From an archaeon (GTDB lineage Archaea; Thermoproteota; Thermoprotei; Thermofilales; JAPDKD01): a DNA stretch of 40,785 nucleotides. Where the stretch lies: NCBI GenBank assembly GCA_029258735.1, contig JAPDKD010000034.1, positions 1-40,785 of the forward strand, read 5' to 3'. The notes below the pieces were generated by a model. The model searched no databases and had not been told where the DNA came from. It saw only the letters and a program-made list of their open reading frames with translations. The stretch's first letter is position 1, and the number at the start of each line of letters is the position of its first letter. The position numbers and the translations under genes are program-made. Below, piece by piece: positions 10,307-13,500 of the stretch.

Positions 10307-10825
10307 TTAAAACAGCGTTTCCTGTTTTTCGCGTTTTTTCGGCTTTTCAACTCCTTCAGGGAACACGTCTCTTACTGGCTTGTAAACCTTCTCAAAGAAC
10401 TCTCTCTGACTTAACAATACTCTCTTATCAAAGCTTTCTAGATATTCTACCGCCCGCTTCCACGCCTCCTCAAACGGCATAACAGACTCTATCCGCCTGA
10501 CGATTTCTTTTTCAAAATCCTCAGGCTTTTGCTCCTCTCCTCCGATTATAAACAATCCGTTAGGACTTACAAAGGCAGCTTCGTCACCCACATAAGCAAT
10601 AATCCTCCCATCCTTCTCCTTTACCTCTTCGACGGGCTTAGTTATCCTTCTCCTTTTTACTCGCGGCGCACCTCCTCTTCTCTTCGCCCACGCATAGAAT
10701 ATTGCCCGGTTCAGCCCGAACGAGTATGCTCTTCGCTTATCGCCAGTAAGCAGGTAGTATCGTGCAGCCTGCAGAAGCGCCATAACCTGGAATCGGCCAA
10801 GCTTTTTCTCCTTAGACATACTCAT
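10307..10825 (-). CDS. Conserved basic hypothetical protein ending in a PIP-box-like QETLF
   Basis: Protein of 172 residues, family not recognised. The N-terminal 40 residues form an amphipathic helix region (QVMALLQAARYYLLTGDKRR, then SFGLNRAIFYAWAKRR), followed by a basic patch RVKRRRITKP, a small sheet-like middle (GRIIAYVGDEAAFV) and a charged helical C-terminus. The last residues are KREKQETLF. QxxLF at the extreme C-terminus resembles the first half of archaeal PCNA-interacting peptides, so a link to DNA replication or repair is possible but unproven. TTTAAA at 10852-10857 lies about 27-30 bases before ATG 10825, with no ribosome site, which suggests a leaderless mRNA. Confidence 0.55.
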   Translation of the reverse strand: MSMSKEKKLGRFQVMALLQAARYYLLTGDKRRAYSFGLNRAIFYAWAKRRGGAPRVKRRRITKPVEEVKEKDGRIIAYVGDEAAFVSPNGLFIIGGEEQKPEDFEKEIVRRIESVMPFEEAWKRAVEYLESFDKRVLLSQREFFEKVYKPVRDVFPEGVEKPKKREKQETLF

Positions 10826-10888: not shown

Positions 10889-11704
10889 ATGCGAAAAATT
10901 GTGCGGAAAGCGAGAGTTCTTAAGGCTTCGGGTGAAATTGAAGCCTACAGCAGGGAGAAGCTCATCTTTAGTCTAATAAAGGCTGGTCTCGACGAGGAAA
11001 AGGCAGAGATACTTGTCTCTATGCTAGAAAAGGATTTGCCAGACTTCGTGTCGAGCAATCATATTCATGAAAGAGTTTACGAGCTGTTAAAAATACACTA
11101 TCCTAAATATGCTTTAAAGTATGCCCTAAAAAGAGCCATAATGAGGCTTGGGCCTGAAGGCTTTCCCTTCGAAAAGTTTTTCGCAAAATTGCTCCAAAAA
11201 ATCGGATATAAAACCGAGACTAACCGAATTCTGAAGGGTCGCTGCGTCTATCACGAAATTGATGTAATCGCCGTTAAAGATGGGGTTAGATATATGGTTG
11301 AATGCAAGTATCACAATAGCCCGGGCATCTACACAGGACTTAAAACGGTTCTCTACGTCTACGCAAGACTTCAAGATCTTTCCGAATATTTTGATGCTGG
11401 ATGGGTAGCCACTAACACGAAGCTGAGCAAAGAAGCTATTCAATACGCCCGATGTGTTGACCTAAAGCTGACCGCTTGGAGGTATCCTCCTCACGAAGGT
11501 CTTGAAGTATTAATTGAGAAAATGAAACTGTATCCAATAACGGTGTTATCAACCCTTCCAAGTCAGGCAAGACGACTCTTACTTTCAGAGAATATTGTAA
11601 CTCTCGAAGATCTGCGGAGTCTCGATATAAGTGAACTTCGAAACCTAACTGGTCTCTCAGAAGAACAGGCAATAAAAGTTATGGAAGAAGCTGCTTTAAT
11701 CTGA
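10889..11704 (+). CDS. ATP-cone / Mrr-like endonuclease / helix-hairpin-helix fusion protein
   Basis: Protein of 271 residues with three parts. Residues 5-90 form an ATP-cone (VLKASGEIEAYSREKLIFSL, ..YPKYALKYALKRAIMRLGPEG). Residues 92-200 form a restriction-endonuclease-like fold with the PD-(D/E)xK residues Asp125 (HEIDVIAV) and Glu138/Lys140 (VECKYH). Residues 213-271 look like a helix-hairpin-helix pair (LENIVTLEDLRSLDISELRNLTGLSE type). ATP-cones sense ATP/dATP in ribonucleotide reductase; here the module may gate a nuclease. DNA is the likely target. ATG 10889 is used. The 3' end overlaps the convergent adk by 9 bases. Confidence 0.78.
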   Translation: MRKIVRKARVLKASGEIEAYSREKLIFSLIKAGLDEEKAEILVSMLEKDLPDFVSSNHIHERVYELLKIHYPKYALKYALKRAIMRLGPEGFPFEKFFAKLLQKIGYKTETNRILKGRCVYHEIDVIAVKDGVRYMVECKYHNSPGIYTGLKTVLYVYARLQDLSEYFDAGWVATNTKLSKEAIQYARCVDLKLTAWRYPPHEGLEVLIEKMKLYPITVLSTLPSQARRLLLSENIVTLEDLRSLDISELRNLTGLSEEQAIKVMEEAALI

Positions 11705-12358
11705 GCAAGCTAGAGGTTCTACAAGCATCTCTTCAAGAAGCTTTATTACTTTAGGTATCATTATTTTCGCATCTTCCACAGCATCTACGCGGAGAAGCTT
11801 TTTCAGCTTTCCGTAGAATTGCAGAATAGGTTTTATAGATATTAGGTGGTCTTTAAACCTTTTTTCTACTACTTCTGGCCTGTCATCAATACGCCTTATT
11901 AAATGAGCACCACAAATATCACATACTCCCTCTCTTCTTGGGGGCTTCCATTTAACGTGGTAGATGGCGCCGCACCTTGGACATACCCTTCTTCCACATA
12001 TTCTCTCTATGACGACGTTTTTCGGCGCCCATAGATATAAGGCTACATCGACGGGAGCGAATACTTCTAAAGCCTCAGCTTGCCTTAAAGTCCTAGGATA
12101 CCCGTCGAGAACGAAGCCTTGAGAGCAGTCTGGCTGCAATACCCTTTCTTTTACAACTCCTATGACTATTTCATCGGGAACAAGATGACCCTCCTTTACG
12201 TATTTTTCGACTATTCTTCCCAGCTCGGTTTTTTCGCGTATAGCTCGCTTAAAGATATCTCCCGTAGAAATATGTGGTATAGAAAAGTAAGAGGCGATAG
12301 CTTTAGAATACGTTCCCTTCCCTACCCCTGGAGGGCCGAGAACAACTATTCTCGGAAT
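11696..12358 (-). CDS. adk: Adenylate kinase (zinc-LID type), apparent ATT start
   Basis: The complete 220-residue protein reads from 12358. The N-terminus is [I]PRIVVLGPPGVGKGTY with the P-loop at residues 8-16. NMP-binding STGDIF and GFVLDGYPRT follow, then a LID with a zinc site Cys126, Cys129, Cys146 and Cys149 (CPRCG, CDICG). It balances ATP + AMP and 2 ADP. No ATG, GTG or TTG exists in frame between the upstream stop TAA and the P-loop. The only sensible start is ATT 12358-12356, with GGTGG at 12369-12365 and a 6-base spacer, exactly where family members begin. A caller limited to standard starts would begin at TTG 12139 and lose the P-loop. Overlaps the nuclease gene by 9 bases. Confidence 0.88.
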   Translation of the reverse strand: MPRIVVLGPPGVGKGTYSKAIASYFSIPHISTGDIFKRAIREKTELGRIVEKYVKEGHLVPDEIVIGVVKERVLQPDCSQGFVLDGYPRTLRQAEALEVFAPVDVALYLWAPKNVVIERICGRRVCPRCGAIYHVKWKPPRREGVCDICGAHLIRRIDDRPEVVEKRFKDHLISIKPILQFYGKLKKLLRVDAVEDAKIMIPKVIKLLEEMLVEPLACSD

Positions 12359-12390
12359 TAAAGACCACCATTTATATTTTATTAGAAATG

Positions 12391-12403
12391 CTTAAATAAA
12401 AAA
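12391..12403 (-). promoter_or_regulatory. Candidate TATA box for adk
   Basis: On the minus strand TTTTTTATTTAAG is centred near 12396. Transcription about 26 bases downstream would begin near 12370, leaving a leader of about 12 bases that contains little more than the GGTGG ribosome site before the ATT start. Confidence 0.5.
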
Positions 12404-12450: not shown

Positions 12451-13500
12451 TTAACGCTTCTTGAGCTTAAAGTCTGTAATTTTTCCTTTCCACTGCTCCC
12501 TATCCAGCTTCTCTTCGAGCTTTCTCCATTCTTCTACTAGCTTCAAGTTCCACTCCCATGTTTCCTCGTCCCGAACATACATTACAACCCTGCTCTTGGA
12601 GTCCACTTCTTTCAGTAGATAGCCTGTCTTCTCGGCTATCTTGTCTCCGAATTCGCGTAGCTCATCTATTGTTGGCATCGCGCTTATCGGCAACCTTTTC
12701 TGGCTTTCTCCTACCCACGTATAGCCTTTAAGTTCGAAGAAGCGGGGCTGAGCCCTTTCTATGAGCCTTGCGTATCCCTCGGGGTTCACCATGTTCAAGC
12801 CGCGAACCATTGTTAACCGTATTATGGTGCGGGTTGAAAACTTGGGGAGAAGCTCCAGGCTTTCCTGTACGAACTTCCAGGCATTCGGGATTAGCGGGCG
12901 TGCTGCCCTTCTAAATGTCTCTTCATCTGGGCCGTAAACGCTGATGTAGAGGTTTGTTGGCTGGGCTTCTTTTTCAAGCATTTCTTGGAGCCTATAGGGT
13001 ACAGACCCGTTTGTTACTACATATGCTGTCATTCCTCTCTCTTTAACCTTTTTTACCAGTTCAGCTAGATACGGATAAAGCGCTGGTTCGCCGTCTAGGC
13101 TGATAGCCATATGGCGTGGGAACATGGCTTCTAGAAATCGCTCCCGCGTAACTCTGGGATGCCCCTTGAAGCCTATGAGGAGTTCCCGCTGGGCTTGTAT
13201 GGCTCCTTCAATAATGTCCTCTGGCTTGTCCCACTCCCATCCTTCGGGTAGCTTGAAACGCCCCGGAAGGTGCATTCGCCAGCAGAAGACGCAGGCAAAG
13301 TTGCAGAAATTTAGGTTAGGCGTCATTTGGACGCAGCGGTGGCTTCTTACTCCATACCATCTCTTGTAGCATAGCCTTTCACCCCTAAGGGCTGACTTTG
13401 TCCATCTGCATATTTCTACAGCGCTATGTCTACCTACTAGCCTATAGCCAGCTCTTAGGTATCTTTGAGTGATATTTTTATCGAATCTCAGCTTAGACAT
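12451..13500 (-). CDS. taw1: 4-demethylwyosine synthase Taw1/TYW1 (radical SAM)
   Basis: Protein of 349 residues. The radical SAM cluster is Cys66, Cys70 and Cys73 (CNFACVFC). A second set, Cys31, Cys44 and Cys56, matches the auxiliary 4Fe-4S cluster of archaeal TYW1. Further family signs are WRMHLPGRF, ISLDGEPALYP, YISVYGPDEETF and FFELKGYTWVGES. The enzyme joins pyruvate carbons to N1-methylguanosine-37 of tRNA-Phe to build the wyosine ring. It acts on the same tRNA that PheST, 15 kb away, charges. First of three minus-strand genes in a row, separated from the primase-like gene by about 40 bases. Confidence 0.95.
   Translation of the reverse strand: MSKLRFDKNITQRYLRAGYRLVGRHSAVEICRWTKSALRGERLCYKRWYGVRSHRCVQMTPNLNFCNFACVFCWRMHLPGRFKLPEGWEWDKPEDIIEGAIQAQRELLIGFKGHPRVTRERFLEAMFPRHMAISLDGEPALYPYLAELVKKVKERGMTAYVVTNGSVPYRLQEMLEKEAQPTNLYISVYGPDEETFRRAARPLIPNAWKFVQESLELLPKFSTRTIIRLTMVRGLNMVNPEGYARLIERAQPRFFELKGYTWVGESQKRLPISAMPTIDELREFGDKIAEKTGYLLKEVDSKSRVVMYVRDEETWEWNLKLVEEWRKLEEKLDREQWKGKITDFKLKKR

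Follow-up and report, generated by a model that had tools for sequence, protein, structure and literature searches.

How translation begins in a gene whose frame offers no ATG, GTG or TTG codon ahead of the P-loop of its product is the question raised by an adenylate kinase gene, here called adk2, in the window, that is, the whole stretch of 40,785 nucleotides that was analysed. The window belongs to contig C5 of a MAG from an archaeon of Thermofilum's order (1.41 Mb, 84.9% complete, 139 contigs), and the closest relatives compared share only this order with it.

The adk2 gene and its start region

A long-form adenylate kinase is the product of the minus-strand frame that lies between the TAA at 12394-12392 and the stop at 11696. 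In profile searches, the protein matches TIGR01351 (adk) with 221.4 bits against a cut-off of 168, PF00406 with 141.2 bits against 26.8, and PF05191 (ADK_lid) with 58.1 bits against 26.6. Membership of the long-form adenylate kinases is indicated by a profile score above the curated cut-off together with the presence of both the P-loop and the lid. The catalytic arginines and the four lid cysteines are kept in the alignment (GYPRT, GR..CP.CG, CD.CG, RR.DD), and only the window protein has K at the residue which we take to be the counterpart of E. coli R36. This protein has a long branch (1.3-1.5) and one additional residue (P) following the start. The features of the locus are presented in Table 1.

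Table 1. Positions of adk2, its start signals and its neighbours in the window.
Feature	Position	Strand	Description
adk2 CDS	11696..12358	-	long-form adenylate kinase with zinc lid, ATT to TAA, 220 aa including initiator
ATT, inferred start codon	12356..12358	-	ATC/ATA/CTG/GTC at the homologous position of orthologs (n = 8)
Shine-Dalgarno (SD) GGTGGTC	12363..12369	-	7 bp pairing with 16S anti-SD GATCACC
In-frame TAA, closes the frame upstream	12392..12394	-	from sequence
TATA-like box TTTATTTAAG	12391..12400	-	from sequence; putative promoter element
Conserved neighbour 'LGRFQVMALLQAARYYLLTGD' (172 aa)	10307..10825	-	66% identity to G013 counterpart
Radical-SAM wyosine synthase (Taw1-like), upstream of adk2	12451..13500	-	PF08608, PF04055
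Mrr-type nuclease domain, ATP-cone and helix-hairpin-helix	10889..11704	+	domain search

After the TAA, the frame reads, 5' to 3', GCA TTT CTA ATA AAA TAT AAA TGG TGG TCT TTA ATT CCG AGA ATA GTT GTT CTC GGC CCT, with PRIVVLGPPGVGKGT directly following the ATT. As the original prediction had claimed, ATG, GTG and TTG are absent between this stop and the P-loop, and the ATT lies six bases past GGTGG (12369-12365). In this frame no canonical codon occurs before a TTG at 12139, deep within the protein; upstream, the only ATG (12371-12369) belongs to another frame and overlaps the SD. The predicted span of 11696-12403 was right at the stop end, but its other limit, 12403, is only the boundary of the open stretch. 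The SD duplex, at -11.2 kcal/mol, is the strongest among the nine adk2 orthologs, and the anti-SD GATCACCTCCT was found at a 16S-3'-end-like site of the relative G013. The TATA-like TTTATTTAAG would lie about 26 nt upstream of a putative transcription start site, in which case a leader of about 12-14 nt would hold the SD. Among about 40 comparable genes of the window, adk2 alone is without a canonical start. Initiation at AUU appears to be the simplest account of the window.

The earlier wording, "the adenylate kinase", did not hold, since the source genome has a second copy, adk1, on contig C20, which starts with TTG and is 55% identical to adk2. Both adk2 and a canonical-start adk1 are present in all seven genomes of the genus Thermofilum (g4). 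Orthologs of adk2 were found in these seven and in one other genome, G024, whose assembly (76% complete) has adk2 only. In the seven inspected genomes of Thermofilum, adk2 is followed directly by a gene for a protein of 163-174 aa, 'LGRFQVMALLQAARYYLLTGD'; in the window the corresponding gene is on the same strand as adk2, with one opposite-strand gene between them. This shared neighbour, for which no Pfam or NCBIfam match was found, supports the orthology of the window gene despite the long branch of its protein. The Mrr-type gene is convergent with adk2, and a few bases at the 3' end of adk2 are shared with it.

Start codons across the adk2 clade

The nine adk2 genes form a single clade (support 97/91), which was recovered with 95/94 in a second tree of 56 rows, for which the start columns were taken out and outgroups added. 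At the homologous start position, the codons are ATT in the window, GTC in G024 (where the start is ambiguous between GTC and TCG), ATA in G022, G008 and G013, CTG in G014, and ATC in G003, G011 and G015. Hence, none of the nine has ATG, GTG or TTG there, whereas a usable canonical start exists in 47 of the 47 other archaeal adenylate kinases on the tree. An ATG in relatives would have pointed to a mutation in the window; the comparison gave the opposite outcome. Since a canonical codon is missing here from the eight orthologs as well, the ATT is more than a chance occurrence. Five of the nine genes (the window, G024, G003, G011 and G015) have no canonical codon at all from the preceding stop to the P-loop, with one exception: in G003, the residue just ahead of GPPG is encoded by a TTG. 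A GGTG-type SD lies a few nucleotides upstream of the start in eight of the nine orthologs, and G003 has a weaker AGGGAT. With no canonical codon that would give the conserved N-terminus, a properly spaced SD and conservation between species, adk2 presents itself as a gene with a non-canonical start, and initiation at AUU is well supported by these comparisons.

To account for the codons observed, the tree needs at least six changes, one from a canonical codon and five among non-canonical codons, and no reversion to a canonical start is found inside the clade. Between G011 and G015, the adk2 codons present 12 synonymous and 3 non-synonymous differences, a comparison that shows the protein to be under purifying selection. 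The mostly synonymous nature of these changes and the preserved catalytic motifs led us to reject a pseudogene. Of the 60 nt upstream, 11 differ between the same two genomes, while the 20 nt closest to the ATC are identical; constraint appears to begin at the SD, as expected of a genuine start.

The reading we favour is that adk2, the Thermofilum lineage's second adenylate kinase of the long form, probably has a near-cognate start and a low output, and that selection keeps its weak codon. The GGTG-type SD would position the 30S subunit just upstream of the near-cognate codon (AUU in the window; AUC, AUA, CUG or GUC in orthologs), and the initiator Met-tRNA would pair with two of its three bases in the P site. 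Such pairing would make initiation inefficient and keep the level of Adk2 low beside that of adk1 with its canonical start, and selection would retain the weak codon. From these alignments we infer actual initiation at the near-cognate codon, low output and selection favouring low output; a weak start that has been maintained accounts best for the data.

Alternative readings and other apparent near-cognate starts

A GTG upstream, within the SD, could be the true start and the AUH codon an ordinary internal isoleucine. An in-frame GTG exactly three codons upstream does exist in G008, G013, G014 and G022, and human AK2 ('..GIRAVLLGPPG') provides a parallel for the internal isoleucine. This GTG, however, is impossible as a start in five of the nine genes, the window included; it is part of the GGTG SD and thus sits inside the motif needed to place the ribosome; and the codon pair before AUH varies (ER, SP, QT, ER). 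Given these non-conserved intervening codons and a GTG that is one base out of frame in G011 and G015, it is not a general start, and we regard this reading as very improbable. We give equally little credence to a local sequencing or assembly error, whether an ATG that was read wrongly or an indel of one base that would bring the ATG at 12371 into frame. Although the window derives from one MAG of 84.9% completeness in 139 contigs, and the out-of-frame ATG is only 13 nt upstream, that ATG would place the SD within the gene, and the non-canonical state is common to eight orthologs, single-contig assemblies among them. Several of the ortholog genomes are single-contig or near-complete, hence error in the MAG fails as an explanation. 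A programmed frameshift from an upstream out-of-frame start was also rejected: it would have to be +1 in the window and -1 in G011 and G015, and G003 has no workable upstream ATG, so no common mechanism would serve. A downstream start would cost strand beta-1 or the P-loop.

More weight is due to general tolerance, in which Thermofilum ribosomes accept near-cognate codons across the lineage and the adk2 start has drifted without selection for weak expression. A census of 530 gene pairs from one genome pair (800 kb of G003 against 1.6 Mb of G013), from which shadow ORFs and translated SD motifs were removed by eye, left about 10 genes that were judged by hand to lack a canonical start (CTG, ACG or ATH instead) in at least one of the two genomes. 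Several genes have CTG in place of GTG or TTG in one genome only; in the YbaK-like, NikR-like and radical-SAM genes, the start is canonical in the other genome. Two cases were checked across the order. In G003, G008, G011, G013 and G015 (loci L297-L300, L302), ACG occupies the same apparent start position of a RimI-like N-acetyltransferase gene; the G008 copy has a TGA stop right in front of the ACG and a GGGTGA SD just upstream. Given that GTG is the second codon in G011 and G015 and that G003 has an upstream GTG, ACG is strictly needed only in G008 and G013. A GH57-like gene (loci L279-L283) has ATA in G011, G013 and G015, ATC in G003, TTG in G008, and ATG, GTG or TTG in most others. ACG is likewise the apparent start codon of a gene that we read from its sequence as TatC-like. 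As judged by hand from this one genome pair, near-cognate initiation seems to be used by about 1-2% of Thermofilum genes.

These starts in other genes also allow general tolerance over selection specific to adk2. Yet about 98% of the genes are canonical, which means that the equilibrium strongly favours ATG, GTG and TTG, and under tolerance alone ATG would be expected to return, ATA to ATG being a single transition. Against this background, the non-canonical state of all nine adk2 genes, through at least five changes and with no reversion, argues for selection for weak initiation, and we consider tolerance alone unlikely. Control of adk2 by aIF1/aIF2 stringency or by the adenylate state is possible. 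It is decidedly doubtful that the 1-2% of genes in question (adk2, the N-acetyltransferase with ACG, GH57 with AUA/AUC, the TatC-like gene with ACG) constitute a near-cognate regulon set by aIF1/aIF2 stringency; if they do, nucleotide balance, protein acetylation and export would share one translational control point.

In both genomes of the census, the TATA-binding protein gene is interrupted (G003, L159, about 6.6-7.1 kb, minus strand; G013, L253, about 6.2-6.7 kb, minus strand). Past '..RIPHAEY' the frame is lost, and conservation is regained at 'EFPGLVLRL'. The insert of about 29-32 nt can fold so that GCCCGGA/UCCGGGC and 3-nt bulges flank a UCCC/GGGA helix (region z -2.8), and resembles a bulge-helix-bulge intron whose excision would yield '..EYSPEQFPGLVLRL'. 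No report of such a tbp intron was found in the literature search.

Significance and comparison with known systems

Gene finders assume ATG, GTG and TTG as standard, and database entries for some genes of this lineage are probably too short or given the wrong start. In adk2, all known orthologs have a non-canonical start while the codon itself changes, which is unusual evidence of selected weak initiation. Archaeal initiation also serves as a simple model for start selection in eukaryotes, where near-cognate starts are regulated via eIF1, and a natural set of archaeal genes with near-cognate starts would let the aIF1 question be tested in a living system.

A literature search covering mostly non-subscription papers returned no report of an adenylate kinase with an AUU start, and for Thermofilum together with adenylate kinase it returned only a review of biotechnological uses. 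Within this limited search, a non-canonical start in an archaeal adenylate kinase appears to be unreported, its closest precedents being Staphylothermus marinus L12ae and Streptomyces sigR.

Within the lineage itself, adk1 of Thermofilum is about 50-55% identical to adk2 and shares its domain architecture and zinc lid, but differs in starting with ATG, GTG or TTG and in forming its own clade. In bacteria, infC and pcnB have AUU starts, which are rare and limit or autoregulate expression. They share AUU with the window gene, yet their products are a translation factor and a poly(A) polymerase, whereas adk2 encodes a paralog of a metabolic enzyme. The analogy is one of mode of working and not of descent, because archaea are without IF3, the functional counterpart being aIF1 (PMC7531240). 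Accordingly, of the original reading, initiation at ATT and a codon that would keep expression low both stand, given a non-canonical state kept through at least five changes in an otherwise canonical family, but the infC, pcnB and IF3 precedents do not carry over to an archaeon with aIF1, aIF1A and aIF2.

A 2020 review of archaeal initiation names AUG, GUG and UUG only (PMC7531240). In S. marinus, the gene for ribosomal protein L12ae has no valid start, and ATC was inferred instead (PMC2678158). Like adk2, this is a crenarchaeal gene without a valid start for which an AUH codon was inferred from alignment; it is, however, one gene in one genome with no conservation reported, whereas adk2 has nine orthologs in two families. 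Streptomyces sigR has a conserved GTC start that is repressed by IF3 (PMC5472188), and resembles adk2 in its conserved non-canonical start and in its low expression, which for adk2 is the expected consequence of weak initiation. The sigR case differs in being bacterial and experimentally shown, with a known factor, whereas adk2 is archaeal and known from its sequence.
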